A DNA stretch of 20,735 bases. Source: a virus. Position numbers and translations under genes: made by a program. The stretch lies in IMG/VR virus record IMGVR_UViG_3300017971_000855, positions 1 to 20,735 of that record, one strand, 5' to 3'. Under the pieces are notes generated by a model that made no database searches, was not told where the DNA came from, and was given only the letters and a program-made list of their open reading frames with translations. Position 1 is the first letter of the stretch. The number at the start of each line of letters is the position of its first letter. Shown piece by piece: positions 2,305 through 18,432 of the stretch.

Positions 2305-2474
2305 CTGGCTGCTCGACAGCTCAGGGTGCTGCCCTATTCTGGGCAACAATAATCCTGCTGATTCTGTTGTTTGTTATCTTGGAGTGGATAACTATGCTGC
2401 TTGAACGGCGGCAGGCATCACGCGGTCGAAGACGTCGAGAGCGTCGGCCTTCTGATTCTCAAAACCAACAATAA
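2301..2474 (+). CDS. Small single-pass membrane protein, antisense to portal 3' end
   Basis: A 57-residue frame starting ATGA-coupled to the preceding gene and ending TAA at 2472-2474. Residues 10-27 (AALFWATIILLILLFVIL) form an uninterrupted hydrophobic helix. It is followed by EWITMLLERR and a very basic tail with many Arg, which predicts a short N-terminus outside and Arg-rich tail inside. The last 83 nt overlap the end of the portal gene on the other strand. Holin-like, spanin-like or superinfection-exclusion roles are possible, but none can be chosen from sequence. The tail composition may partly reflect the antisense codon constraint. Confidence 0.5.
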   Translation: MTGCSTAQGAALFWATIILLILLFVILEWITMLLERRQASRGRRRRERRPSDSQNQQ

Positions 2475-4608
2475 GAGCCTGCTTGGCTGACCGGGTCCAG
2501 GGGATAATCTCCCTCTGGAATCCACGGTTGATGGCATCGAGCTGCTCGGCCGACTTGGGCTCGGTGATCACAGCCACCGTGTTGCACAGGCAGTTGATGT
2601 CTTCCTCTGGAATACCGAAGCCACCGGGATACATCGCCGTGTCTCCCGTGCTCGGAATCTCGAACGGCTCATCGATACCGACTGGCTTGGTGTCGTTGAG
2701 TTCGACGTGGGTTTCTCTGGTGTTTACGAATGATGCGGCCCACTGCCTGGCCTCCACTACACCGCTCTGCTTGTGGGCCGACCAGGTCGCTGCGTTCGCT
2801 GCCCGGTTCACTTCGGTCCTGGCAATCCTATTGGCCCGCACCTTGTAGATATCGAGCTGTCCTTCCTGGAAAATGCCGGTCACCCGTGCCCTGAGTTCTG
2901 CAATTCCTTCACCTTCGCGGAATCCCTCGAGTAGTGACTGCTCGAGTGCCTGCTGCGTCTCGGGGTTCACCAGATCCGCAATGCGCTCGTTGGTCTTGGC
3001 GAACACTTCTTCCCGCACCAGCGGGTTGAGTATGTCGAATCTCTGCTCGATACCCAAGTCCTCGAGTACTCCCTTGCCAAGGTCCTCGGCGTATTCCTCC
3101 CATACCGGCCCAAGCTCGGCGGTAAGCGTCTCTGGTTGCAGAGCATCCAGCACTGCTTGTATCGCCTCAAGTTCCGGGCCTTCCTGCTTCACCATCACAC
3201 ACCCGCACTTGGGAACAGCACGCAGTGCCCTTTGCTCTTCGGGCTCCCCCTCCTCTTCCTCCTCGGGCTCGATGATAGGCTGCTCTGTGGGTTGTTCCTC
3301 TTCCCTATCGGCCCGCTCAGGTATCAGAGCCACCGGCACGAAGTAAACATCACCATCAGGCACAGAGTCTAGGCCCATGAATTTGGTGCGCCATTCGTTG
3401 CGGGTGAGATTGTGCGGTGCGGTCTTGGCCGCTTCGAACTGTGCGGCCTTGTCCTCAGGCACCGGGCTCTCATAATAAAGCACCAGCCGCTCATCGAACT
3501 GCGGTACGAGCTGGTGCACGATCGTCCTAAGCATGCGCTCGAGCCGAGGAATGGTCACGTACTCCGCCATGAACAGAGCCGCGCTAGTGATGCTCGCTCG
3601 GTTGCTGTTCTCCACATCACCCACGACCTCTGGCGGTACGCCGTACGTCTGCTGTACCTCTTCGGCCATGGCCTTCCTGAGGTCGGTAAGTTCCAGCTCT
3701 TGGAATGACTGGTCGACCCGCTTGAAACTGACCTCGCCATTGGTGAACTTCATCAACCCGTGCTTCCTGAACCCACGGTGGCGTTGTTCCCACTCTTCCT
3801 GCAAGCGCCCTATCGCGTCCTTACCGGCTCCCTTGATCGACACCACACCATAGGGCACGGCCCTGTTTAAGAACGTCGCTTTGGTGAGCTTGGCCGCGTA
3901 TTCATCGGTATCAAGTTCGTCTCCCAGCGACAGGCCCAAGCCCGCACCTCGCCCATATGGGTTGTCTGGGTCGAGTTCCCTGAACCACAACACGTTCTGT
4001 GCCGGCAGCTGCCTGGGGTCAAATGAAACATCATACCACGGCTTATCCACACTCGGTGTGCCTGTCACCCAGTGCGGAGGGATGGGCCAAACCTCGACTG
4101 GCATCCCTGCCTGGTTGCGCACCAAGAGCCAGAACGCCTCGCCCGGCACGTCAAGGTAGATGGTGGTCAATTTCTTTATGTCGAACCCAGTCATCACCGA
4201 GTTGCCACGGTCTAGCAGGTGCACCAGCGGGTGGTCAGGCACATCGATAAAATTGCCCTCTTCCTCGGTCTTACGTAGCCACTTGGCACGCTGCTCGAAC
4301 GAACGCGCCAAATGGACCTTGTGCATCGTCGCTCTGCCGGCCTTATCCTGCACAAACCCACCGAGAATCGGGTTCTTGGCCACGTCGTCCGCGATACGCG
4401 CCACAACACGCCTGAGCTTGCTGTTGTCGCGGTACATCTGCACAAGTTGTCGTCTGCCAGGTGGTGCGCCCGTACTCCTAAACCCGAGCATGCCGGACAG
4501 GGCCCGCTCGAGCGTAGCTGCGTTGTCTTCATTTGCTGCCTTGATTGCTGTTTCCAGCACCTCGGCATTGTACTTGCTCGGCCGGAATACCCGATCAAAA
4601 AGACCCAT
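2392..4608 (-). CDS. Portal protein fused to a MuF-like head morphogenesis domain
   Basis: 738 residues from the ATG at 4608-4606 (MGLFDRVFRPSKYN), with GGGAGG about 8 nt upstream. An in-frame GTG at 4641 would lie in the predicted promoter. The first 420 or so residues match phage portals: MYRDNSKLRRVVARIADDVAKNP, the Pro-rich VWPIPPHWV, and QTYGVPPEVVGDVENSNRAS. An acidic linker (EEEEEGEPEEQ) follows. The C-terminal third resembles the MuF/SPP1 gp7 minor head domain (RIARTEVNRAANAATWSAHKQSG, then EEDINCLCNTVAVI). The portal is the DNA entry ring; MuF proteins sit inside the head. In most phages these are two genes, so this is a fusion. It follows the large terminase gene. Confidence 0.88.
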   Translation of the reverse strand: MGLFDRVFRPSKYNAEVLETAIKAANEDNAATLERALSGMLGFRSTGAPPGRRQLVQMYRDNSKLRRVVARIADDVAKNPILGGFVQDKAGRATMHKVHLARSFEQRAKWLRKTEEEGNFIDVPDHPLVHLLDRGNSVMTGFDIKKLTTIYLDVPGEAFWLLVRNQAGMPVEVWPIPPHWVTGTPSVDKPWYDVSFDPRQLPAQNVLWFRELDPDNPYGRGAGLGLSLGDELDTDEYAAKLTKATFLNRAVPYGVVSIKGAGKDAIGRLQEEWEQRHRGFRKHGLMKFTNGEVSFKRVDQSFQELELTDLRKAMAEEVQQTYGVPPEVVGDVENSNRASITSAALFMAEYVTIPRLERMLRTIVHQLVPQFDERLVLYYESPVPEDKAAQFEAAKTAPHNLTRNEWRTKFMGLDSVPDGDVYFVPVALIPERADREEEQPTEQPIIEPEEEEEGEPEEQRALRAVPKCGCVMVKQEGPELEAIQAVLDALQPETLTAELGPVWEEYAEDLGKGVLEDLGIEQRFDILNPLVREEVFAKTNERIADLVNPETQQALEQSLLEGFREGEGIAELRARVTGIFQEGQLDIYKVRANRIARTEVNRAANAATWSAHKQSGVVEARQWAASFVNTRETHVELNDTKPVGIDEPFEIPSTGDTAMYPGGFGIPEEDINCLCNTVAVITEPKSAEQLDAINRGFQREIIPWTRSAKQALIVGFENQKADALDVFDRVMPAAVQAA

Positions 4609-4629
4609 GACGGCTACCTCCCTCCCCAC

Positions 4630-4658
4630 ATTATAACACACGCCTCATAAGATCACAA
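4630..4658 (-). promoter_or_regulatory. Possible leftward promoter for the portal gene
   Basis: Minus strand: TTGTGA (4658-4653), 17 nt, TATAAT (4635-4630), with TGT before the -10. The spacer contains CTTATG and GTGTGT, paralleling the promoters at 13274 and 704-732. The -35 is weak and lies partly in the terminase stop region. Confidence 0.45.
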
Positions 4659-5973
4659 TCTCTTCCTCGATTTCCCTAGGAGCGAACGCCATCACCACGG
4701 CATCAGCAGCGTCTGTGCTGCGCCCGATGCGCTTCTTGATGTCGTCCTTGCTCTCCACCACGATCACCTTGTCCCCAGTGATGCGGTATCTAGGAGTACT
4801 CAGCTCTTCGAATAGGCGACGGTCCTCTTCCTCGAAACAAAGCTCACCCTTGCGTAGCATCTCCCTAAGATTCCACCACGCTTGGCTGCGCCTGTTCTTA
4901 AACCTAAACATCGTGTCTTCTTGCTCGACGGCCCTAGCACCCGCCACAAACGCATGACACTGGTGACCCAGCGTGTTGAGCGTATCCCACGTACCAGCAC
5001 CAAGGCCCACCGTATCGATCGCTGCGTCTTCCGGGTCTACTCCCCGTTTCCTGATGTCGCTGGCCACGTAGCCTGCGGTCTTGTCAGTCGGGATTCCGTG
5101 GTAGTACGCCAATGGGAATACCACGTTGCCATCGATCTTGGCGATCACCGTGTCATCGGCGTTTGGTTTCTCGCTATGCGCCACATCCACCCCGGTCCTC
5201 TTCGTGCCTGTCTGTGGCTCGACATTCAGCGCATTATGGCACCACGCCAATGAGATGAGCTGCTCGGGGTGCTCCATTGCCCGCCAATCGCCTAGCACGA
5301 ACCTACGGTATGCAAGCTCGTTTGTCTCCTTGAGCCGTTCTAGCGATTTCAAGTAGCTCTGCGGTAGGTGCGGGTTGTCCTTTATTGTGGCCGGTTGGAA
5401 ATAGAAACCCTCCGACAGTGTGCCATTGTGGTACGGGTCGTGGAAATCGCGCTTGACCCAGCCATCATCCGGGTTGGTTGTGTACCAGTTGAGTGGGGGA
5501 GGCTGCTTGCCATCTCGTATCACCCAGGTCCCAGCTCTCTCCATTACTTTGGCCAGCGTCTCTGGTGCGAGTTCGTTCGCCTCCTCACATAGGAAGCCGT
5601 TCACCTCGAGCCCAGCCCACCGGTTGTACCCCGGGTCGCTCTGTACGCTCTCTGGGAAGAACAGGATTGTGCTACCATTTGTGCATTTGGCCACCCAGTC
5701 GCTACGGTTCATCTCGCCAACAAAACCCGATGGTCTGAATTTGTTGAACGCAGGCAGCGTGTTGCGCTTGAGCGTGGGCAGATCCTTGCGCACTACGGCC
5801 CACCGAGACCCGGGCCAGATCTTGCACACCAACCAAAGCACCATGAGCGCGGCCACGGTCTTACCACCACGGATCGCGCCACCAAACATGAGATGCACGT
5901 ACTTGAGCGACAACACAGCCTGTATGAACTTTTCCTGTACGGCAGTCGGTACCAGGGCTTTCTTAGAATTCAA
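4645..5973 (-). CDS. terL: Terminase large subunit (packaging ATPase and nuclease)
   Basis: 442 residues. This is the DNA-packaging motor. The Walker A-like motif is GGAIRGGKT (31-39), the Walker B/catalytic glutamate region is VNGFLCEEANE (E130/E131), and the coupling motif region is WYTTNPDDG. The RNase H-fold nuclease shows acidic residues at GVDVAHSEKP (D262), DAAIDTVGLG (D319) and RSTDAADAVVMAF (D420/D423). The start is a TTG at 5973 that overlaps the end of the small subunit by 11 nt. No ATG or GTG lies upstream of the conserved TAVQEKFIQAV segment in frame, so a TTG start with translational coupling is the best reading. Confidence 0.93.
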   Translation of the reverse strand: MNSKKALVPTAVQEKFIQAVLSLKYVHLMFGGAIRGGKTVAALMVLWLVCKIWPGSRWAVVRKDLPTLKRNTLPAFNKFRPSGFVGEMNRSDWVAKCTNGSTILFFPESVQSDPGYNRWAGLEVNGFLCEEANELAPETLAKVMERAGTWVIRDGKQPPPLNWYTTNPDDGWVKRDFHDPYHNGTLSEGFYFQPATIKDNPHLPQSYLKSLERLKETNELAYRRFVLGDWRAMEHPEQLISLAWCHNALNVEPQTGTKRTGVDVAHSEKPNADDTVIAKIDGNVVFPLAYYHGIPTDKTAGYVASDIRKRGVDPEDAAIDTVGLGAGTWDTLNTLGHQCHAFVAGARAVEQEDTMFRFKNRRSQAWWNLREMLRKGELCFEEEDRRLFEELSTPRYRITGDKVIVVESKDDIKKRIGRSTDAADAVVMAFAPREIEEEIVIL

Positions 5974-6890: not shown

Positions 6891-7125
6891 GTATGGGATT
6901 GACGATCGGCCCTGCGCCTTATCCTCCCGCACGCGGGAGTTATCCTCCCTGTGACCCGCGCCTCTCCATCCCCACATCCCTCCCTACTCGTATTACCGGT
7001 TTCTCCGAGGCCAGCTCGTTGCGCTGCGCCATCCTCACCACAGCGCCAGATAGCTGGCTTATGTACTCCTCCCTACTCCTCCTCCTACTATAGTTGCGTT
7101 GCAAACTTTGCCCAACGTTGCATCC

Positions 7126-7151
7126 GTTGCACCCCCTTAGGGGGGTGCAAC
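7126..7151. repeat. Perfect 11-bp inverted repeat
   Basis: GTTGCACCCCC (7126-7136), loop TTAG, GGGGGTGCAAC (7141-7151). The arms begin and end with two of the GTTGCA/TGCAAC sites. It could extrude as a cruciform or fold as a very stable RNA hairpin. Confidence 0.9.
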
Positions 7152-7407
7152 TATGCAACGTCGGGTGCAAAGGCCCTATTGACTCCGGTAAACCTCATGT
7201 CAAGAGCGTTGCATATATCTCTCACCCGCGTCCCTAGCGCATGAGCGATAGTTGCAGCGTTGCGCAACTATGGTGCAAGAGAATGCAACGCCTCCCGTGC
7301 GTTGCAGAGATACGTTGCGTCTGTATGCAACGTGCAACGCTCCGCTCGTCCGTCTCCCACGCGTATCTCAGATAGTTGCAGTCTAGAGGTTTAATCGTGC
7401 ATCGTCC

Positions 7408-7433
7408 TGCAACGCGTTGCATGCAACGTTGCA
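7408..7433. repeat. Four abutting hexamers forming overlapping palindromes
   Basis: TGCAAC, GC, GTTGCA, TGCAAC and GTTGCA follow one another without gaps other than GC. They create three perfect palindromes: 7408-7421 (14 bp), 7416-7427 (12 bp) and 7422-7433 (12 bp). This is the densest point of the array. Confidence 0.9.
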
Positions 7434-7545
7434 GAGCGCATATGTATGCTTGCAACGACAACCTATGTAGCTTGTCGCATACGCTATATCAGGACAAGGC
7501 ATTAGGATGGGCCCCTCGAGCCACTGCTGTTTGGCGTTGCCCAGA

Positions 7546-7578
7546 ATCTCGGAGACCCGCGCCCCAGGCGGCTCTCCG
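7546..7578 (+). repeat. Hairpin element, copy 1
   Basis: ATCTCGGAGA then an inner stem CGCC-loop-GGCG (7560-7570) and closing TCTCCG (7573-7578), which pairs with CGGAGA (7550-7555). The apical loop is CCA. It shares sequence and shape with the elements at 7712-7744 and 13188-13224. Confidence 0.55.
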
Positions 7579-7711
7579 CGTGTATGTTTCGATCGGAAAT
7601 CCGCGTCCCGCGCGGGTCCGAGATATTGCTCGTTGCACTATGATTCTGGTGCTGGGCCATGTCCTGGACCCATCTAGAGGTCAATTGGCCCATTGTCCTC
7701 CACACCCATAT

Positions 7712-7744
7712 ATCTCGGATGCCCGTCCCAGACGGCTCTCCGGG
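7712..7744 (+). repeat. Hairpin element, copy 2, upstream of the rightward promoter
   Basis: ATCTCGGATGC, inner stem CCGTC (7723-7727), loop CCA, GACGG (7731-7735), then CTCTCCGGG. The inner stem keeps pairing with copy 1 through base changes (GCC/GGC versus GTC/GAC). It ends about 48 bp upstream of the -35 at 7793. Confidence 0.55.
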
Positions 7745-7792
7745 GTCTAACGCAACGTGTCAAGGTAAACCTACTGACACCTACATTGGTAC

Positions 7793-7822
7793 TTGACAAA
7801 CTACATGTTGACATGATAAAAT
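7793..7822 (+). promoter_or_regulatory. Promoter of the ribozyme-bearing rightward operon
   Basis: TTGACA (7793-7798), 18 nt, TAAAAT (7817-7822), with TG one base before the -10. The 18-nt spacing and sequence (ACTTGACA, ACTA, TGACATG) are close to the promoter at 16882-16911. Initiation is expected near 7829, giving a leader of about 290 nt. Confidence 0.75.
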
Positions 7823-7828
7823 TTAATT

Positions 7829-8047
7829 AGAAGCCGGGAATGCGGCTTCGCTAAAGCGGACGGATTCCGTTGGGAGAGATGGTGGGATAGGTGGCAGCCA
7901 AAGCTGCTACGCGGCCGAGAGGTCGCCGGTTCGGAGCTTACCCCACTGAAAATAAGGCACACCTGTCGATTTCGCCCCACGCCGGGCGCGATTACAAAGC
8001 GATAGCGAGGTGAGAGGCTCCCACGTCGGAGCGCACCGCATACGATC
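7829..8047 (+). ncRNA. Long structured 5' leader, class unknown
   Basis: A gene-free leader with many local hairpins. These are 7830-7836/7843-7849 (GAAGCCG/CGGCTTC), 7860-7863/7867-7870, 7891-7898/7903-7910 (GTGGCAGC/GCTGCTAC), 7911-7916/7921-7926 with GAGA loop, 7960-7964/8008-8012 (CACCT/AGGTG), and 8017-8021/8028-8032 (GCTCC/GGAGC). Bases 7882-7886 (GTGGG) pair with 7942-7946 (CCCAC), closing a multi-branched domain. I recognise no Rfam class. It ends where the type III hammerhead begins, so cleavage after 8054 would release it from the operon mRNA. Confidence 0.45.
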
Positions 8048-8101
8048 GGATGTCGAGCGCTGCTGTAGCGCTCCTGATGAGGCCATAAGGCCGAAACATC
8101 C
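8048..8101 (+). ncRNA. Hammerhead ribozyme 1, type III
   Basis: All hammerhead parts are present in type III order. Stem III is GGATGT (8048-8053) with ACATCC (8096-8101). The cleavage nucleotide is C8054 (GUC triplet). Stem I is GAGCGC (8055-8060) with GCGCTC (8068-8073) and loop TGCTGTA. The core is CTGATGA (8074-8080). Stem II is GGCC-ATAA-GGCC (8081-8092), then GAA (8093-8095). Stem III is the open stem, so the 3' product keeps stems I and II. It lies 18 nt before the first gene's ATG, with GAGGAG between. Confidence 0.93.
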
Positions 8102-8119
8102 AACATAGAGGAGATAGCC

Positions 8120-8362
8120 ATGAAGAGCCATTACACGATCGTAAGCGATGGGCCGTACAGCGGAATCCGGTACTGCGATTGCGATGGGCGGCATATCGAC
8201 AACGATCCGCGATTCGCGATCGATGGCGAGCTGGCGAGCTGCTTCACCTCGCTGCGCAAGGCCAAGGCGCGGCTGATCGAGGACCACATGAGCATCATCC
8301 ACATGTACAAGGACGCGATCGCCGAGGTCCGCAGCCTGCGCAAGGACGACATCGATTTCTGA
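8120..8362 (+). CDS. Small HYxI...RCDC paralogue family protein, member 1
   Basis: 80 residues, opening MKSHYTIVSDGPYSGIRYCDCDGR and continuing NDPRFAIDGELASCFTSL, KAKARLI and YKDAIAEVRSLRKDDI. It is clearly homologous to the product of 9703-9951 and more distantly to that of 11338-11556. Conserved CDC Cys pair and a C-terminal helical half are seen. Function unknown. It is the first gene of the ribozyme operon, with a ribozyme directly on each side; after cleavage its message would be a single-gene fragment of about 365 nt (8055-8419). Confidence 0.75.
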   Translation: MKSHYTIVSDGPYSGIRYCDCDGRHIDNDPRFAIDGELASCFTSLRKAKARLIEDHMSIIHMYKDAIAEVRSLRKDDIDF

Positions 8363-8363
8363 T

Positions 8364-8430
8364 CCTACCTGATGAGAGCTGGGTAGCTCCCAGCCGAAAT
8401 CGGCCCCCATGGGCCGATCGTAGGAAGCTA
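8364..8430 (+). ncRNA. Hammerhead ribozyme 2, type I, with pseudoknot
   Basis: It starts two bases after the upstream stop. Stem I is CCTAC (8364-8368) with GTAGG (8420-8424). The core is CTGATGA (8369-8375). Stem II is G8376-C8395 plus GCTGGG/CCCAGC (8378-8383/8389-8394), with a bulged A8377. GAA is 8396-8398. Stem III is ATCGGCCC/GGGCCGAT with CCAT loop (8399-8418). The cleavage site is C8419. The stem II loop TAGCT (8384-8388) is fully complementary to AGCTA (8426-8430), 3' of stem I. Confidence 0.93.
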
Positions 8431-8453
8431 ACACACAACATAAGGAGATAGCC

Positions 8454-8672
8454 ATGACGAGCATCAACACCAAGGATAAGGTATACGTAGTGCGCCAGCT
8501 GCTGGCGGAGTTCGAGACCATGAGAGAATTCGCCGAGATGGAAGCGGCTGACGGCGACGAGGCTCTGCTCGATGACATGGTCGAATCGCTGAGCCGCGCA
8601 ATGGCCGCCTACCAGGGCGACCCAGCCGATCGCATCGTGCATGAGCTGCTGGCCATGCGCGATGAAGGATGA
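8454..8672 (+). CDS. Small acidic hypothetical protein
   Basis: 72 residues, with AAGGAG upstream of the ATG. The composition is acidic (by my count 17 Asp/Glu to 7 Lys/Arg) and helical (VRQLLAEFETMREFAEMEAADGDEALLDDMVESLSRAMAAY). No family is recognised. It sits alone between ribozymes 2 and 3, so cleavage would give a single-gene message of about 316 nt. Confidence 0.65.
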   Translation: MTSINTKDKVYVVRQLLAEFETMREFAEMEAADGDEALLDDMVESLSRAMAAYQGDPADRIVHELLAMRDEG

Positions 8673-8680
8673 GATCCTAA

Positions 8681-8746
8681 CCTGCCTGATGAGCAGCTCG
8701 GTGGTCCCGAGCCGAAACCCCGCCGATGCGGGGTCGCAGGAAACCA
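8681..8746 (+). ncRNA. Hammerhead ribozyme 3, type I, with pseudoknot
   Basis: Stem I is CCTGC (8681-8685) with GCAGG (8736-8740), replacing the A-U pair of copy 2 by G-C. The core is CTGATGA (8686-8692). Stem II is G8693-C8713 with bulged CA, then GCTCGG/CCGAGC (8696-8701/8707-8712). GAA is 8714-8716. Stem III is ACCCCGC-CGAT-GCGGGGT (8717-8734). The cleavage site is C8735. Loop II TGGT (8702-8705) pairs with ACCA (8743-8746). Confidence 0.93.
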
Positions 8747-8764
8747 ACAACATAGGAGATAGCC

Positions 8765-9067
8765 ATGGACATCGAGACCAAGTACAACGTGGCGCTGTGG
8801 GCGATCCAGGAAATCCTCACCATCGAGGAGCAGCGGGCCGTCACCGATCGCGATCACGAGGAGCTGGACGAACTCGGCGAGATGTGCGGCGATTGGGAGG
8901 ATGACATGACGACGGCGCTTGAGGCCGACGATGTCTGCGCTGCCAACGAGCTGTACGATGAGATTCTGACCTACTTGAGCCAGAACGGCAACGAGGGTGA
9001 TTACCTCGGCAAGTCGCACAGCTGGATCGCCGAGTGGCTACTGAGCTGCTACGATCTGGATGAGTAG
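8765..9067 (+). CDS. Highly acidic hypothetical protein
   Basis: 100 residues. By my count there are about 28 Asp/Glu and only 4 Lys/Arg, with runs such as HEELDELGEMCGDWEDDM and a helical feel throughout. Three Cys residues lack a metal-binding spacing. No family is recognised. Such acidity is shared by phage DNA-mimic proteins, but the sequence alone does not show that role. It is flanked by ribozymes 3 and 4 and preceded by AGGAG. Confidence 0.65.
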   Translation: MDIETKYNVALWAIQEILTIEEQRAVTDRDHEELDELGEMCGDWEDDMTTALEADDVCAANELYDEILTYLSQNGNEGDYLGKSHSWIAEWLLSCYDLDE

Positions 9068-9069
9068 AG

Positions 9070-9132
9070 CCTACCTGATGAGCCCGGATGGTGACCGGGC
9101 GAAACGGGCCGAGCGCCCGTCGTGGGAAACCA
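9070..9132 (+). ncRNA. Hammerhead ribozyme 4, type I, with pseudoknot
   Basis: It starts three bases after a TAG stop. Stem I is CCTAC (9070-9074) with GTGGG (9122-9126), one U-G pair. The core is CTGATGA (9075-9081). Stem II is GCCCGG/CCGGGC (9082-9087/9095-9100) without the bulge of the other copies. GAA is 9101-9103. Stem III is ACGGGC/GCCCGT (9104-9109/9115-9120) with loop CGAGC. The cleavage site is C9121. Loop II TGGT (9089-9092) pairs with ACCA (9129-9132). Confidence 0.92.
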
Positions 9133-9150
9133 ACAACAAAGGAGATAGAT

Positions 9151-9693
9151 ATGAAAGCCAAGACACGGAAGGGCAAGGTAGTCGAGGTCGCCGTAAAGCC
9201 GAAGTACGGCAACGGCAAGTGGTACCACCCCGTCAAGCACTATGGTATGCGCGTGATCAGCGATGTCGAGCACTGGTGGGATACCTTCTCCCGGAACGGC
9301 GAGACCTTCGGCATGGCGACCATCAAGGGTGAGCGGGTGTTGGTACAGTGGACCACCACCAACTGGCATGTCTGCCGCAATGTGGACCCCCGCGAGTCCG
9401 GTCTGCTCGAGCGCATCGAGAAGAGCAAGCCAGAACCCAAGTCGCCTATCCTGAAGAAGGTAGCCCGACTCAACTGGTACATCCTGGACAAGGTCGACCT
9501 CTTCGACCCAGACACGGGCCGCATCGGCGAGTACACCTTGGGGTGCACCCGCAAGTACGGCAAGGCGTTTGTCCGTATGCAGCACAGCGAACGCGTGTAC
9601 AGCGTGCAGCGGTTCGGCGAGCAGATCGTGCTGAAGTCGGTGGCCGATGGTGAGGAGCCCAAGACCTACCACGTCTACAGCGACAACTTCTAG
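9151..9693 (+). CDS. Hypothetical protein, 180 residues
   Basis: I use the ATG at 9151 (AAGGAGATAGAT just upstream). The frame is open further back to 9088, but that part is ribozyme 4. It begins MKAKTRKGKVVEVAVKPKYGNGKWYHPVKHYGM. It is basic at the N-terminus and rich in aromatic residues (VEHWWDTFSRNGETFGMATIKGERVL), with the look of a small beta-rich protein. The C-terminal half carries FDPDTGRIGEYTLGCTRKYGKAF. No family is recognised. It shares a ribozyme-bounded segment (9122-10005) with the next gene. Confidence 0.7.
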   Translation: MKAKTRKGKVVEVAVKPKYGNGKWYHPVKHYGMRVISDVEHWWDTFSRNGETFGMATIKGERVLVQWTTTNWHVCRNVDPRESGLLERIEKSKPEPKSPILKKVARLNWYILDKVDLFDPDTGRIGEYTLGCTRKYGKAFVRMQHSERVYSVQRFGEQIVLKSVADGEEPKTYHVYSDNF

Positions 9694-9702
9694 GAGGAAG
9701 CC

Positions 9703-9951
9703 ATGAAAGCGCACTACACAATCAGAGATGATGGACCCTACAGCAGCATCGAACGTTGCAACTGCGACGGGGAGCCGGCCTACAGCGTTCAAGATGATCC
9801 CCGCTTCGAGATGGACGGCGAGCTGGCCCAGTGCTACAGCACGCTGGCCAAAGCAAAAGCCCGACTCATCGCCGACCACAAGAACACGATCGGTGTGTAC
9901 CGCGACGCAATCGCACACGTTCGCACCTTGAAGGTCGCCGACATCGAATAG
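9703..9951 (+). CDS. Small HYxI...RCDC paralogue family protein, member 2
   Basis: 82 residues: MKAHYTIRDDGPYSSIERCNCDGE, then DDPRFEMDGELAQCYSTLAKAKARLIADH and YRDAIAHVRTLKVADIE. It aligns over its whole length with the product of 8120-8362, with a two-residue insertion after CDGE. The start has AGGAGG 6 nt upstream and follows the previous stop by 9 nt with no ribozyme between. The two copies imply a gene duplication within the operon. Function unknown. Confidence 0.75.
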   Translation: MKAHYTIRDDGPYSSIERCNCDGEPAYSVQDDPRFEMDGELAQCYSTLAKAKARLIADHKNTIGVYRDAIAHVRTLKVADIE

Positions 9952-10016
9952 CCTACCTGATGAGAGCCGATTGGTGATCGGCCGAAACGGGCCTTCGGGC
10001 CCGTAGTAGGAAACCA
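9952..10016 (+). ncRNA. Hammerhead ribozyme 5, type I, GUA cleavage site
   Basis: It starts at the base after a TAG stop. Stem I is CCTAC (9952-9956) with GTAGG (10006-10010). The core is CTGATGA (9957-9963). Stem II is G9964-C9983 with bulged A, then GCCGAT/ATCGGC (9966-9971/9977-9982). GAA is 9984-9986. Stem III is ACGGGCC-TTCG-GGCCCGT (9987-10004), a UUCG tetraloop. The nucleotide 5' of the cut is A10005 instead of C, which the hammerhead rule (H = A, C or U) allows. Loop II TGGT (9972-9975) pairs with ACCA (10013-10016). Confidence 0.92.
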
Positions 10017-10034
10017 ACAACAAGGAGGATAGAT

Positions 10035-10298
10035 ATGAACAAGTCAACCTACGTGCTGCGCCCGTCCAACGACTGGTTCTCGGTGAAGGTCGACACCGGT
10101 TGGCCCGAGACCTGGGAGCGCAGCCACTGTGGCGAGTGCGACGCCCCCTGGTGGACGCTCGAGCTGCGTGATGACTGCTGGGTGCTGTGGAATCTGCCGA
10201 GCAGAGCGGCGTACGACCACGGCACCAAGTCCTACTTCGACTCGGCTGTCGAAGCCGTCAACTGGGTGTACATGCATGGCGAGATGTGCAAACACTAA
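10035..10298 (+). CDS. Hypothetical protein, Trp-rich with a CxxC pair
   Basis: 87 residues, AAGGAGG upstream. Trp is unusually frequent (DWFSVKVDTGWPETWERSHCGECDAPWWTLELRDDCWVLWN), with one CGEC pair and a further Cys at residues near 56 and 85. YFDSAVEAVNWVYMHGEM forms a C-terminal helix. No family is recognised; a small one-zinc fold is possible. It opens the segment between ribozymes 5 and 6. Confidence 0.65.
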   Translation: MNKSTYVLRPSNDWFSVKVDTGWPETWERSHCGECDAPWWTLELRDDCWVLWNLPSRAAYDHGTKSYFDSAVEAVNWVYMHGEMCKH

Positions 10299-10312
10299 AA
10301 AGGAGGAGAGCT

Positions 10313-10546
10313 ATGAAGACCGAAATGGAAGAAATGGAAGAGATACTCGAGATGCTGGAAAGAGTGGAGAGCAAGATCGACAAAGAGGCGAGTAAGCTGG
10401 AATCCCGCTATGATAGTCTGCCATCCGACAGCAAGGTTAGGGACCTAGCCATCAACGCATCTTATGGATTGCGTGCTGCCAGTAAGGCCCTGACGGCTAC
10501 GCGCTATGGTGTGCAGAGCTACGTTGATCTGTACGAGGAAGGATAA
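10313..10546 (+). CDS. Hypothetical helical protein
   Basis: 77 residues from the ATG at 10313, preceded by AGGAGGAG. The first 45 residues (MKTEMEEMEEILEMLERVESKIDKEASKLESRY) form a strong coiled-coil pattern. LRAASKALTATRYGVQSYVDLYEEG follows. No family is recognised. It is paired with the previous gene in one ribozyme-bounded segment. Confidence 0.65.
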   Translation: MKTEMEEMEEILEMLERVESKIDKEASKLESRYDSLPSDSKVRDLAINASYGLRAASKALTATRYGVQSYVDLYEEG

Positions 10547-10548
10547 AA

Positions 10549-10613
10549 CCTGCCTGACGAGCGCCCGTTGGTGACGGGCCGAAACGGGTCGCAAGGCCCG
10601 TCGCAGGAAACCA
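10549..10613 (+). ncRNA. Hammerhead ribozyme 6, type I, C7 core variant
   Basis: Stem I is CCTGC (10549-10553) with GCAGG (10603-10607). The core is CTGACGA (10554-10560), with C at the tolerated position 7. Stem II is G10561-C10580 with bulged C, then GCCCGT/ACGGGC (10563-10568/10574-10579). GAA is 10581-10583. Stem III is ACGGGTC-GCAA-GGCCCGT (10584-10601), a GNRA tetraloop and one U-G pair. The cleavage site is C10602. Loop II TGGT (10569-10572) pairs with ACCA (10610-10613). Confidence 0.92.
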
Positions 10614-10632: not shown

Positions 10633-10818
10633 ATGAAACGACTAACCAAAGGACGTATCAGAGGATACGAGAGCAGGGCCGACCGGAAACGGGCGATCGC
10701 CATGCTCCGGAGGCAAGGGTACAACTACTTCGTCTGTTACCGAGACACGCAGTCAGAATTCGCGTTGCAGTACGCCAAGGCCGATTGGGTGAAACCAGGA
10801 CAAGCCTACATCAAGTAA
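10633..10818 (+). CDS. Small basic hypothetical protein
   Basis: 61 residues with AAAGGAGGAG before the ATG. It is strongly basic at the N-terminus (MKRLTKGRIRGYESRADRKRAIAMLRRQGYNYFVCYRD) and has the plain beta/alpha look of small phage nucleic-acid-associated proteins. No family is recognised. It is the first gene after ribozyme 6, and no hammerhead follows it. Confidence 0.6.
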   Translation: MKRLTKGRIRGYESRADRKRAIAMLRRQGYNYFVCYRDTQSEFALQYAKADWVKPGQAYIK

Positions 10819-11159: not shown

Positions 11160-11348
11160 ATGAAAATTAGGCTCACAGTCGAGGTGAAGGACCTGTTTAG
11201 GCATGCAGTCGCACATCGCTTTGGCCAGGAAGGAACAGAACCAGCGAGTCGGTTGTTTGTCGAGAATCTGCTGCAAACCGTAGTCGACAACTACGTGCGT
11301 GGCGTAACAGACCAGTTCCTACAAAAGGAGGGCGTGGATGAAGAGTAA
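11160..11348 (+). CDS. Small hypothetical protein
   Basis: 62 residues, AAGGAGGA upstream. MKIRLTVEVKDLFRHAVAHRFGQEGTEPASRLFVENLLQTVVDNYVRGVTDQFLQKEG is a short strand followed by helices, like a ribbon-helix-helix-sized protein, but the pattern is not good enough to call one. Its end overlaps the next gene's start by 11 nt. Confidence 0.6.
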   Translation: MKIRLTVEVKDLFRHAVAHRFGQEGTEPASRLFVENLLQTVVDNYVRGVTDQFLQKEGVDEE

Positions 11349-11556
11349 GCACTACCGCATCAAATGGGACATGGCACAGTCGAAGATCGTCAGGTGTGAC
11401 TGTCGGTGGTGGCGTGAGTCGCTTAACTGCTTCCAGTCCTTTGGCGAGGCCAGAGATGCGCTGGCCAACTACTTCCGTGGTGTGAAGGACAAATTCCAGC
11501 ACGCACTCGAGGGAATCTACACTATCGAGGAGTCCGACATAAAGGAGGAGGTATGA
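11338..11556 (+). CDS. HYxI...RCDC paralogue family protein, distant member 3
   Basis: 72 residues: MKSKHYRIKWDMAQSKIVRCDCRWW, then FQSFGEARDALANYFRGVKDKFQHALEGIYTIEESDI. The order K-HYxI, IxRCDC, a Phe/Ala-rich helix and a terminal 'DI' matches the products of 8120-8362 and 9703-9951, though the identity is low. GGAGGGCG precedes the ATG, and the stop overlaps the next start. Function unknown. Confidence 0.65.
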   Translation: MKSKHYRIKWDMAQSKIVRCDCRWWRESLNCFQSFGEARDALANYFRGVKDKFQHALEGIYTIEESDIKEEV

Positions 11557-14710: not shown

Positions 14711-16501
14711 ATGACCATGCTCGATGAGGCCCTACGATACCTGGATCGTGGCTGGTCGGTAATTCCCGCACAGCGCAAGGGAAAGAAAGCGCTGGTAGAG
14801 TGGGAAGAATACAGCCAACGAAAGCCCACACCCGAAGAAATCAAGTCGTGGTGGAAGAAGTGGCCAAATGCCAACATCGCAGTCATCACGGGCCGAGTAT
14901 CCAACCTAGTCGCTGTCGACATCGACCCCGATCGAGGGGGAGACCCACGCAAGGTGTACAACCGCACCAAGACCGGTCTCATCAGCAGGACTGGTAGCAA
15001 TGGGTATCACCTCTTCTATTCCTACCCGACTGGTACAGACCACGTCTATAACAAGGTAGGCAAGGATGGTATCGACATCCGAGGTGATGGTGGGTATGTC
15101 ATCGCTCCTCCTTCAGTGCACGCCAGTGGCAAAAAGTACGAGTTCGTCTCATATAGCGAACCTGCCGTGTTGCCCAGTTGGCTCACCGACGAGGTAGAAG
15201 AGGAAGGCCAGGAGAACAACGATCGCTGGCTATCGGATATTCTGTCTGGTGTGGGACAGGGAGGCAGAAACGACGCTGCTACCAGACTGGCTGGGTATTT
15301 CGCATCGAAGGACATGGCTAAGGAAGTAGCAGCCCATCTACTCAAGGATTGGAATAGCAAGAATGAGCCGCCGTTGCACGACCGAGAGCTTACCACCGTG
15401 CTGGATAGCGTCTACAAGACCGAGTTCCGGAGAAATAAGAATCGAAAGAGGAACGGCGTCCCTCAGTCTCTATCATTCATGCATTTTGGATCCTACATGT
15501 CCAGATTCGGCGACATGTCTATTCGTTGGTGCATTAAGGATTGGCTCCCCGATTCAACGATCGCTTTCGTTATCTCGCCTCCTGGCACCTATAAGACCTG
15601 GACCGTCTTTGATCTGGCCGTATCTGTAGCGGGCGGTCACAAATTCCTAGGACAATATGAGGTGATCAACCCAGGGCCCGTGCTCATCCTGCAACAGGAG
15701 GATTTCCACGGTCAGATTGTCGAGCGTATAGCCAGCGTCGTCACAGACCGCCATGGATTCGATTTTGATAAGGACGACCCGAGTGATGCAGAGCATTTTG
15801 AGTGTCCGAACGCACCAGACCTACCGATCGTATTCCACCCCGATCGGGCCTTGCGGTTCGATGACACAGGACTCATGCACTCCCTCGAACAGTATGTGGC
15901 CAAGGTAAAACCCAGACTCGTGATTATAGATCCGCTCTATTCCGCTGGCAACGTGGATGACTACATGGCCAAGACGGCCGAGCAGATGTTTCCACTCAAA
16001 AAGATGAGGGATACCTACGGCTGTTCATTCCTGGTTGTGCACCACACCAAAAAGAAAGCCGAGGGTACAGAGCGCGAAGGTGGCTGGGGTAGCCAGTTCC
16101 TGAATGCGTTCATGGAGACGGGCTGGCAGATACGTCGCTCCGGAGATAACAACTCGGTGGTGGTGCACCGCCATTTCAAAGTGAAAGGCGAGATACCCGA
16201 TCTGCACCTCACCTTCGACATCAGCACTGAGAGACCATACAAGTACAACATCATCTGCGAAGACGCCGAGGAAGCGCTCGAGGAGTACAGAGAGAAAACC
16301 AAGTCCAACACCGCAGTCAAAAAAGCAGAAACCGACATTCTGGTGGTTCTTAGGAAGGGGCCCGCTCATACGGCCGAGATCGCCAGACAGGTTGGTGTAC
16401 ATAAAAGCACAATATCTCGCCGCATGGGGCAACTCGAGAAGGCCGGTGTGGTGGTGAAGAATGACAAGGATTGGGAACTAGCCGAACTACCAGACTTTTA
16501 G
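14711..16501 (+). CDS. PrimPol-RepA-like helicase fusion (replication primase-helicase)
   Basis: 596 residues. N-terminal bifunctional primase/polymerase domain (PF09250 type): AVITGRVSNLVAVDIDPDRGG gives the catalytic D70 and D72, RTGSNGYHLFY the His (H100), and DIRGDGGYVIAPPSVH a third acid (D122). The middle is a RecA-fold, RepA/DnaB-like helicase: Walker A SPPGTYKT (289-296), VLILQQEDF, Walker B LVIIDPLYSAG, and FLVVHHTKKK followed by GSQFLNAF. The last 50 residues form a winged helix (LRKGPAHTAEIARQVGVHKSTISRRMGQLEKAGVV). It would synthesise primers and unwind DNA at the phage origin. It follows the HTH gene by 2 nt. Confidence 0.9.
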   Translation: MTMLDEALRYLDRGWSVIPAQRKGKKALVEWEEYSQRKPTPEEIKSWWKKWPNANIAVITGRVSNLVAVDIDPDRGGDPRKVYNRTKTGLISRTGSNGYHLFYSYPTGTDHVYNKVGKDGIDIRGDGGYVIAPPSVHASGKKYEFVSYSEPAVLPSWLTDEVEEEGQENNDRWLSDILSGVGQGGRNDAATRLAGYFASKDMAKEVAAHLLKDWNSKNEPPLHDRELTTVLDSVYKTEFRRNKNRKRNGVPQSLSFMHFGSYMSRFGDMSIRWCIKDWLPDSTIAFVISPPGTYKTWTVFDLAVSVAGGHKFLGQYEVINPGPVLILQQEDFHGQIVERIASVVTDRHGFDFDKDDPSDAEHFECPNAPDLPIVFHPDRALRFDDTGLMHSLEQYVAKVKPRLVIIDPLYSAGNVDDYMAKTAEQMFPLKKMRDTYGCSFLVVHHTKKKAEGTEREGGWGSQFLNAFMETGWQIRRSGDNNSVVVHRHFKVKGEIPDLHLTFDISTERPYKYNIICEDAEEALEEYREKTKSNTAVKKAETDILVVLRKGPAHTAEIARQVGVHKSTISRRMGQLEKAGVVVKNDKDWELAELPDF

Positions 16502-16510
16502 GGGGCAACA

Positions 16511-16885
16511 ATGAAACTGGTATACATCGCAGGGCCGTATCGGGCCGACACGCCGTACGAAATTGAGCGCAACATCCGTAGGGCCGAAGACCTGGGACTC
16601 GAAGTGGCCAGAAATGGAGCAGTACCTGTCATTCCGCACACCATGTACCGCTTCTTCCAGGACTCCTTGCCGGACGACTTCTGGCTTGATGGAACCATGG
16701 AAATCTTGCGTCGTTGTGATGCCATCCTGATGGGCCCACAGTGGGAAGAGAGCGCGGGGTCCAATAGCGAGTTCAAGGAAGCTGAGAAGCTCGGGCTCGC
16801 CATCTTCTACTGGCAAGAAGACGTGATGCACGCATCCAAGAAGTGGTTTCAGTTCCTAGGGGTTGACCCCAAATATAGTACTTGA
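16511..16885 (+). CDS. DUF4406 / nucleoside 2-deoxyribosyltransferase-like protein
   Basis: 124 residues. KLVYIAGPYRA at the N-terminus is the nucleoside deoxyribosyltransferase-like opening. VPVIPHTMYRFFQDS, CDAILMGPQWEESAGSNSEFKEAEKLGLAIFY supplies the Asp and the SxGSxxE element where the family's catalytic Glu sits. Many phages carry this family, where it may act in nucleotide salvage or metabolism. Substrate cannot be read from the sequence. GGGGGCAAC precedes the ATG, and the 3' end overlaps the next promoter. Confidence 0.8.
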   Translation: MKLVYIAGPYRADTPYEIERNIRRAEDLGLEVARNGAVPVIPHTMYRFFQDSLPDDFWLDGTMEILRRCDAILMGPQWEESAGSNSEFKEAEKLGLAIFYWQEDVMHASKKWFQFLGVDPKYST

Positions 16886-16940: not shown

Positions 16941-17429
16941 ATGAGTAAGTTATCGCACGCGCAACAGAAGACGCTCCTCAAGATCGGAGAGCACACCGGA
17001 CCGCTGACTGAGGAGGAGGCAAAAAAGCTGTATGACGCTCGGGTCGTAAACAACCTCCTCAAAAAGGGGGTGCTCGAGAACGTGGATGGTTTCATAGTCA
17101 AAAGAGTCAGGGAGCAACAGAGACTCGCACCACCCGCCAATGTCGACACCACCAAGATCCGCAAGACCATCGATCTATCGCAGGCATCGAAAGCGCAGGT
17201 GCGAGCCACCACCAGCAAATGCCTGTGTGGGTGCGGCATGCCAGTCTATGGTAGAGCAAAATTCAAGCCCGGCCACGACGGCCGTCTGCGTGGCAAGGTC
17301 CTGAGGCTCATGAAGGGGGAGCCGGCCGAGTTCGACGTCACCAACCAGGAGACGCTCACCTATCTCAAGGGCGCGCACTGGATCACGCCCGAGATCTGGG
17401 ATGCCCTGAAGGAGGCGTATCATGCCTAG
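16941..17429 (+). CDS. CLCGCG/GHD zinc-motif protein, member 3
   Basis: 162 residues. N-terminal LSHAQQKTLLKIGEHTGPLTEEEAKKLYDARVVNNLLKKGVLENVDGFIVKR is a winged-helix-like segment. The C-terminal part has CLCGCGMPVYGRAKFKPGHDGRLRGKVL then DVTNQETLTYLKGAHWITPEIWDAL, the same domain as in 12281-12886 and 12879-13151. It heads the operon with the recombination genes, so a DNA-binding role is plausible but not shown. Its end overlaps the nuclease gene by 8 nt. Confidence 0.7.
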   Translation: MSKLSHAQQKTLLKIGEHTGPLTEEEAKKLYDARVVNNLLKKGVLENVDGFIVKRVREQQRLAPPANVDTTKIRKTIDLSQASKAQVRATTSKCLCGCGMPVYGRAKFKPGHDGRLRGKVLRLMKGEPAEFDVTNQETLTYLKGAHWITPEIWDALKEAYHA

Positions 17430-18432
17430 GCATCTCTCGTACACGCAGTGGTCCACGTGGCAAAGGTGCCAGTACTCTTATTACCTCAAGTACGTACTCA
17501 GGATCAAACCGCGTCATGAGAGACCGGCCATATCGCTTGGTATCGCTGTCCACAGGGGACTTGCCGCTGGTCTGTTGGGTGAGTCGGTAGCCAATGCAAT
17601 CGCCGAGTGGCAAGATGAGCTTCTCGAGCAGCCCCTATTCCCGGATGAGGAGATGCAAGTCGAGGAGATGGGGCCGGAAGCACACGCTATCACTGGGCGC
17701 ACCCTCGATTCTCTTGAGCTTGGAGAGAAGTGGGACACCGTAAGTGTGGATGGTGTGCCCTTAGTCGAGACCAAACTCGAGTGCGACTTGCCCAAGGAAT
17801 CGGGTGATTGGTCCCATTTCGAGGGACACATCGACTGGGTAGCTCTCGAACTTGAGACGGGCCGGAAGTGGCTCGTGGATCATAAGGTCCGCAAGTCGTT
17901 CCAGGGTGACTACGCCGAAGAGTTCAACCAGCAGATGGCTCTGTACAAACACTTGATGACGGTCGAACTCGACATCAAGGACGTGTATGGGTCCATCACT
18001 CACCAAATAAAGTCCACCACACCACAGGAACCCTCAATCAACAAGAACGGTTCGGTGGGCCGTCAGTTGATTACCACAGACTGGCCAACATACCTGGCCG
18101 TTATTGAGCGCCAAGGCCAAGACCCGGCCGACTACGAGGATATGCGTGCCAAGCTGCAAGATGTCGAGTGGTCCCGTATGTCGACCAATTACTGGCCGGA
18201 CATGATGGTGCGGGCCGTCTGGAACAACATGGTGAGCAACGCCAAGGCCATACAGGAGGCCAAATCCTACCCGCGCACCATCGGTCTGTTCACATGCAAT
18301 GGGTGCAGACTGCGCGAATTCTGCATGGCCGACCTGCGAGGTGAGGATACCGACTTTCTTCTCCAAACAACCTTCATGTATAAAGACGAGGAAGACAAGC
18401 CCCTAAACCCAAACATCGAATTGGAGGAGTGA
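17422..18432 (+). CDS. PD-(D/E)XK nuclease with Fe-S cysteines (Cas4/RecB-like)
   Basis: 336 residues. LSYTQWSTWQRCQYSYYLKYV at the N-terminus and LGIAVHRGLAAG (H44) are RecB-family signatures. The nuclease core is GHIDWVALE (D138) and WLVDHKVRKS (D153, K155), followed by FNQQMALYKH (Q/Y motif). Cys16 together with CNGCRLREFC (C292, C295, C301) gives the four Cys of the 4Fe-4S cluster seen in Cas4 and AddB. The likely role is exonuclease processing of DNA ends for the recombination pathway of the next two genes. No CRISPR array or cas1/cas2 is nearby, so it is a phage recombination nuclease instead of a CRISPR protein. Confidence 0.88.
   Translation: MPRHLSYTQWSTWQRCQYSYYLKYVLRIKPRHERPAISLGIAVHRGLAAGLLGESVANAIAEWQDELLEQPLFPDEEMQVEEMGPEAHAITGRTLDSLELGEKWDTVSVDGVPLVETKLECDLPKESGDWSHFEGHIDWVALELETGRKWLVDHKVRKSFQGDYAEEFNQQMALYKHLMTVELDIKDVYGSITHQIKSTTPQEPSINKNGSVGRQLITTDWPTYLAVIERQGQDPADYEDMRAKLQDVEWSRMSTNYWPDMMVRAVWNNMVSNAKAIQEAKSYPRTIGLFTCNGCRLREFCMADLRGEDTDFLLQTTFMYKDEEDKPLNPNIELEE

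Follow-up and report, generated by a model that had tools for sequence, protein, structure and literature searches.

Six candidate hammerhead ribozymes along an early operon of an uncharacterised tailed phage

The DNA analysed here (the window) is the IMG/VR viral record IMGVR_UViG_3300017971_000855, 20,735 bases in length. Between positions 8047 and 10607 a hammerhead descriptor identified one type III and five type I hammerhead motifs, all on the coding strand. Judged from the sequence, these six motifs are probably active hammerheads that would cut the early polycistronic mRNA into separate translatable messages. The genome that carries them is that of an uncharacterised tailed phage, with the array in its early mRNA. 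An earlier note, made by direct reading, had placed six hammerheads between the genes of this operon. The descriptor returned the same elements on the same strand and, independently, the identical six cut positions. Five of them are indeed intergenic, whereas copy 1 is a type III element in the leader. The features of the array are listed below. Scores for copies 2–6 refer to R1, a covariance model built from alignment A1 (16 equal-length type I hammerheads from other phages and bacteria). Genes g1 to g8 are open reading frames (ORFs) preceded by a Shine–Dalgarno (SD) sequence; lengths are in amino acids (aa).

8047–8102, + strand: copy 1, a leader hammerhead of type III with its predicted cut after 8054 (RF00008, 44 bits; descriptor; folds so alone)
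8120–8362, + strand: g1, 80 aa, paralogue of g5 by alignment
8364–8424, + strand: copy 2, type I hammerhead, predicted cut after 8419 (61.6 bits; descriptor)
8384–8388, + strand: loop II UAGCU of copy 2, pairing with AGCUA at 8426–8430, a compensatory pseudoknot allele
8426–8430, + strand: AGCUA in the leader, the other side of the copy 2 pseudoknot
8454–8672, + strand: g2, 72 aa
8681–8740, + strand: copy 3, type I hammerhead, predicted cut after 8735 (58.8 bits)
8702–8705 and 8743–8746, + strand: copy 3 pseudoknot, loop II UGGU with leader ACCA
8765–9067, + strand: g3, 100 aa
9070–9126, + strand: copy 4, type I hammerhead, predicted cut after 9121 (63.3 bits)
9089–9092 and 9129–9132, + strand: copy 4 pseudoknot, loop II UGGU with leader ACCA
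9151–9693, + strand: g4, 180 aa; boundary to g5 without a ribozyme
9703–9951, + strand: g5, 82 aa, paralogue of g1 by alignment
9952–10010, + strand: copy 5, type I hammerhead, predicted cut after 10005 (66.2 bits)
9972–9975 and 10013–10016, + strand: copy 5 pseudoknot, loop II UGGU with leader ACCA
10035–10298, + strand: g6, 87 aa; boundary to g7 without a ribozyme
10313–10546, + strand: g7, 77 aa
10549–10607, + strand: copy 6, type I hammerhead, predicted cut after 10602 (64.2 bits)
10569–10572 and 10610–10613, + strand: copy 6 pseudoknot, loop II UGGU with leader ACCA
10633–10818, + strand: g8, 61 aa, opening the last predicted piece

All six copies have the full catalytic core and an NUH cleavage site (GUC, AUC, GUC, GUC, GUA, and GUC in copies 1–6). 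The core CUGANGA ... GAA, the A15.1–U16.1 pair, and the NUH triplet are present in all five type I copies. Each of these has three stems, of which I is open and II and III are capped by loops, the arrangement of the type I class. Copy 1 shares the core, and by descriptor its stem III is open and its stems I and II are closed, as in type III. It aligns over its full length with Rfam Hammerhead_3 (RF00008); the score of 44 bits (E 8e-7) falls short of the curated cut-off, 48.5. For copies 2–6 Rfam returned nothing, Hammerhead_1 (RF00163) included, although matches up to E 10 were admitted. The search with the Rfam type I and type III models that the earlier note had proposed thus picks up copy 1, under the cut-off, and leaves copies 2–6 unmatched. 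Falling short of the RF00163 gathering score is a limit of that model and not of the biochemical class.

R1, in contrast, matched copies 2–6 at 58.8–66.2 bits (E 3e-15 to 2e-17), and the next-best place in the window scored 11 bits. In A1, 97.9% of cells are paired, 17 of the 21 pairs have changed on both sides, and there are 74 double-change cells against 20.9 in shuffled alignments. The five type I copies of the window are paired in 99.1% of cells (83.4% shuffled) and show 17 double-change cells (5.5 shuffled). Compensatory changes are seen in every helix, the pseudoknot described below among them, and support the hammerhead reading. They also bear out the statement of the earlier note that the stems vary while pairing is kept, except that stem I of copy 4 holds a U–G pair (CCUAC/GUGGG). 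When the window was dinucleotide-shuffled 100 times, a simple hammerhead scanner found nothing on either strand. The predicted fold of each copy in isolation is a hammerhead.

Relatives were collected by pattern scans of IMG/VR and GTDB; the counts come from pattern-selected contigs and are no census. Across both databases there are at least 213 distinct type I copies by descriptor and at least 281 by R1. The GTDB scan gave 53 stretches, chiefly from Clostridia, with others from cyanobacteria, Paenibacillus, Desulfoscipio, and further groups. Arrays of seven copies occur in each of the contigs L055 and L062, and L157 has at least 10. The largest, in L208 (IMGVR_UViG_3300036780_000230, contig positions 16718–24782), has 16 type I hammerheads on one strand of an 8-kb stretch, mostly at single-gene intervals. 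Rfam reported no hammerhead at the gathering score in eight array contigs.

A predicted contact between loop II and the leader, absent from the earlier account, was found in every type I copy of the window. The leader bases that come right after stem I and an AA can pair with loop II, as UGGU/ACCA in copies 3–6 and as UAGCU/AGCUA in copy 2. Among 189 listed distinct copies whose stem I has the GGAA end, 145 have the 3 nucleotides (nt) that come next in Watson–Crick complementarity to their own loop II, against 52.4 (standard deviation, s.d., 5.6) with swapped leaders. When the two common alleles are set aside, 55 of 89 still match, against 16.4 (s.d. 3.4). Leader swapping takes no account of kinship, yet alleles differ inside one genome, as in the window. 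This fixed-register test replaced an earlier wide-window test, which was noisy (at least 4 base pairs in 136 of 213 listed copies, 73 with swapped leaders and 86 with the leader reversed). Covariation thus suggests that copies 2–6 have the loop II–leader pairing of the type I class. The pairing should therefore keep stem I alongside stem II, as needed for fast cleavage. PMC3088659 describes stem I–stem II pseudoknots in all three hammerhead types and, in a type II example, their requirement for fast cleavage.

According to the earlier note, each of the five intergenic copies follows a stop codon and precedes the next ribosome-binding site, and the ORF and SD coordinates agree. At each cut in the window the stop codon would stay on the upstream piece, with the SD and start codon on the downstream piece; the same goes for most of the 213 listed relatives. 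The cut would thus part one complete gene from the next, an arrangement that speaks for processing and not for inactivation. An SD-preceded start follows the cut in 198 of 213 listed copies (median distance 40 nt); the opposite strand gives 97, mostly with weak SDs. The upstream stop typically sits at the 5′ margin of stem I, 8–9 nt ahead of the core C. In the listed relatives, 54 stops are at −8, against 8.8 (s.d. 3.1) per background position. The stop-to-stem I gaps of copies 2–6 are 1, 8, 2, 0, and 2 nt. In 29 of 183 listed copies the UGA of the catalytic core is itself the upstream stop, and these make up 29 of the 37 stops that overlap a ribozyme. In 9 of the 16 copies of L208 the best candidate for the upstream stop is the core UGA, and in 5 a stop abuts stem I. 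Packing pressure on the phage genome could contribute to this closeness.

Hammerheads cut 3′ of H17 and leave a 2′,3′-cyclic phosphate and a 5′-hydroxyl. By analogy with the family, cleavage of the same kind and the same ends would be expected here. After a type III cut the ribozyme body would stay with the downstream RNA, at its 5′ end; after a type I cut it would stay with the upstream RNA, at its 3′ end. The head copy would trim a leader of about 225 nt, and its folded body would then sit at the 5′ terminus of the first mRNA. At each type I copy, stems II and III would remain as a 3′ hairpin cap bearing the cyclic phosphate on the upstream message. The downstream message would begin with a 5′-hydroxyl and a leader of 29–34 nt, followed by the SD and the start codon. 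The order is the type III copy in the leader, then g1, g2, g3, g4–g5, g6–g7, and g8 onward, each division being a type I copy. The resulting messages would follow these divisions, with predicted pieces of 365, 316, 386, 884, and 597 nt before the rest. The 3′ hairpins and 5′-hydroxyl ends may slow decay, and separate stability and dosage of the messages would be the purpose. A type III copy at the head with a type I copy after the first gene would therefore cap the first message at both ends, which we offer as a proposal.

The earlier note had read the array as self-processing that dices the operon gene by gene. Self-processing is the best reading of the cut geometry and the covariation, and the dicing is nearly as described. 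It is not strictly gene by gene, because the boundaries at 9693/9703 and 10298/10313, both short SD spacers, carry no ribozyme; two gene pairs would stay joined. These boundaries weigh against the reading, as do several further points. When folds are predicted with 60–150 nt of flank and without the pseudoknot, stem I is outcompeted by other pairs in several copies. The support for the six copies comes from sequence and computation, and the benefit of processing to the phage is presumed. No related but distinct phage carrying the same genes was found by INPHARED DNA comparison or terminase search, so the evolution of this particular array is not traceable. Sequence, structure, covariation, geometry, and spread are what was obtained here.

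Cleavage could also be subordinate to translation, the array being a translation-sensing switch that cuts untranslated RNA only and not a constitutive cutter. The reasoning is that a ribosome terminating at such a stop, or on the core UGA, would shield part of the core together with the 5′ strand of stem I. Each of the five type I copies of the window has its stop 0–8 nt from stem I, the listed relatives have a strong stop peak at the stem I edge, and the core UGA recurs as the stop, in L208 among others; all of this fits such a switch. Tight gene packing alone could nevertheless place a stop beside the ribozyme, because the stop must be upstream of the cut. We regard the switch as possible but hold it tentatively. 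The stop-codon placement makes the link to translation directly testable by single-base changes.

Two further explanations appear very improbable to us. In one, the ribozymes cut and re-ligate to give circular or rearranged single-gene RNAs. Hammerheads are generally known to catalyse the reverse reaction (ligation) as well, and here stem I and loop II of the ribozyme at the end of a piece can bind that piece's own 5′ end. Compatible ends (stem I 5/5 plus pseudoknot) occur in 50% of neighbouring pairs, against 38% for non-neighbours of the same array and 20% between phages, but such compatibility follows from the likeness of copies within a genome. The comparison of neighbouring pairs gave no sign of selection for non-matching ribozymes, which would block re-ligation. 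Spliced or circular products were sought in the work of PMC3088659, and none were found. In the other, the motifs are inert or non-cutting intergenic hairpins whose only effect is to stabilise the mRNA or attenuate it, or else they are decaying repeats that keep no more than the shape of hammerheads. Copies from the same genome resemble one another (mean column identity about 80%), one gene is duplicated (g1/g5), and CCGANGA replaces CUGANGA in six relatives, as such an origin would have it. Inert hairpins, however, would not keep an unpaired core: NUH is retained, and CUGANGA is intact in 89 of the 96 R1 matches (at least 30 bits) that no pattern had demanded, although R1 itself favours intact cores. 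Their pseudoknot covaries as well. The copies are also non-identical, and the surroundings contain no mobility gene, which speaks against this reading too. We therefore retain self-processing of the early mRNA by active hammerheads as the preferred explanation.

The earlier note did not know an operon-dicing array as established. The idea is not new, because it was proposed and partly shown in 2011 (Perreault et al., PMC3088659). In the prophages of that paper, multiple hammerheads flank individual genes or short blocks, processing to single-gene mRNAs was proposed, and tandem arrangements cleave in vitro, one three-ribozyme array also in E. coli. These prophage clusters resemble the window in having several coding-strand hammerheads that flank phage genes, with a I–II pseudoknot. 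The window array has the features of a clustered phage hammerhead as described there, with several copies on one strand flanking the genes of an operon. The arrays tested there were small (three copies in A. tumefaciens), compared with six in the window and up to 16 in a relative. The main text, as available, does not mention placement at stop codons, a core UGA used as stop, or a type III head combined with intergenic type I copies. According to de la Pena et al. (2017; PMC6155905), prokaryotic hammerheads lie near each other, flank ORFs for small non-conserved proteins, and are linked to phages, their role being called open. The array genes of the window are likewise small and without a known family; the review contains no array architecture. 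Bacterial hammerheads and twisters also cluster together and near Mu-like phage genes (PMC10085705).

The type I hammerheads of RF00163 (animal repeats, viroids, retrozymes) share the core and permutation of copies 2–6. They yield unit-length or circular repeat RNAs, whereas in the window single copies stand between protein genes and loop II pairs with the 3′ leader. The RF00163 model is blind to these copies; therefore such arrays would go unannotated and their transcript ends would be misread. RNase III cuts the polycistronic early mRNA of phage T7 between genes, a process to which the earlier note had likened the array. That enzyme is a host protein, whereas the RNA of the window would cut itself and leave a 5′-hydroxyl. 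Theta ribozymes of gut phages are self-cleaving and process phage transcripts (PMC10879173); they have an HDV-like fold and act on viral tRNA transcripts, in contrast to hammerheads on mRNA. The class is thus known, and the array size, stop-codon placement, type III head, and Rfam blind spot appear to be new in the open-access literature. Arrays with the cut between stop codon and SD argue for an mRNA-processing role of phage hammerheads, and this array would be a natural example of one operon transcript split into separate messages.

A type III copy at the operon head with type I copies between genes is present in the window, in the close relatives L075 and L083, and in L137. The head copies have no upstream gene within 300 nt, and the SD and start lie 12–18 nt past the ribozyme body. 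We take this pattern, from three lineages, as a lead and not as a rule. It might conceivably belong to a general architecture of phage mRNA, with the permutation matched to position, each cut tied to translation termination, ribosomes gating cleavage, and a message lifetime set per gene, but we think this rather doubtful. The gating would arise from the position of the stop, which either adjoins stem I or coincides with the UGA of the core. In L137 (IMGVR_UViG_3300020166_000058), one phage region was observed to carry all three permutations on one strand: besides the type III head and the type I copies there is a type II copy (RF02276, 46.3 bits).

Some core variants were seen among the relatives. 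Six otherwise intact copies read CCGANGA for CUGANGA (one each in L047, L073, L124, and L190, and two in L048); they are either dead or tolerated variants. In 37 R1 matches that no pattern had demanded, one additional U separates A9 from stem II (CUGANGA-U-G); this core variant is recurrent, for example, in L129, L140, L143, L152, L155, L162, L182, and L196. We considered the core AUG of CUGANGAUGG variants as a start codon and rejected it; there is no SD and the frames are mostly short, and we take it as the extra U after A9. L174 (JACPSZ010000013.1), a contig binned as Thaumarchaeota, has a weak match to this group of hammerheads (24.8 bits) and represents either an archaeal virus or a binning error.

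The array proteins have no family match in Pfam, PHROGs, or PADLOC. The paralogues g1 and g5 are each followed by a hammerhead, but the pseudoknot alleles and stems of the two differ. The ORF at 11338–11556 is possibly a distant third member of this family. On the − strand, the window encodes a terminase (4645–5973) and a portal protein (2392–4641). Rightward genes include a Prim-Pol/AAA protein (14711–16501) and an exonuclease (17422–18432). The 49,154-base record IMGVR_UViG_3300017963_000083 is the same phage, with 100% identity over 12,169 bases and 99.98% over 8,566 bases, and no further hammerhead was found in it. The terminase search recovered this phage alone, and no INPHARED phage record has DNA similar to the window. 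Portal and primase relatives are distant (<33% identity among the matches listed).

A consensus scan located a promoter-like site, TTGACA-18-TAAAAT, upstream of the array (7793–7822, + strand; 11/12 positions, with TG before the −10 element), which is a match alone. ARAGORN found no tRNA in the leader, and the folding of this leader is no better than that of shuffles (z −0.99). Matches to mir-19 and mir-6644 at 7104–7174 were rejected; they are under the cut-off and lie within an inverted GTTGCA repeat. The non-coding region 7098–7456, between divergent gene blocks, holds 17 of the 29 GTTGCA motifs of the window, on both strands, where 12 are expected for the whole window. These may be binding sites or an origin. 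Two imperfect direct copies of ATCTCGGA..CCCG..CCCAG.CGGCTCTCCG were spotted by eye in non-coding DNA at 7547–7580 and 7712–7745.

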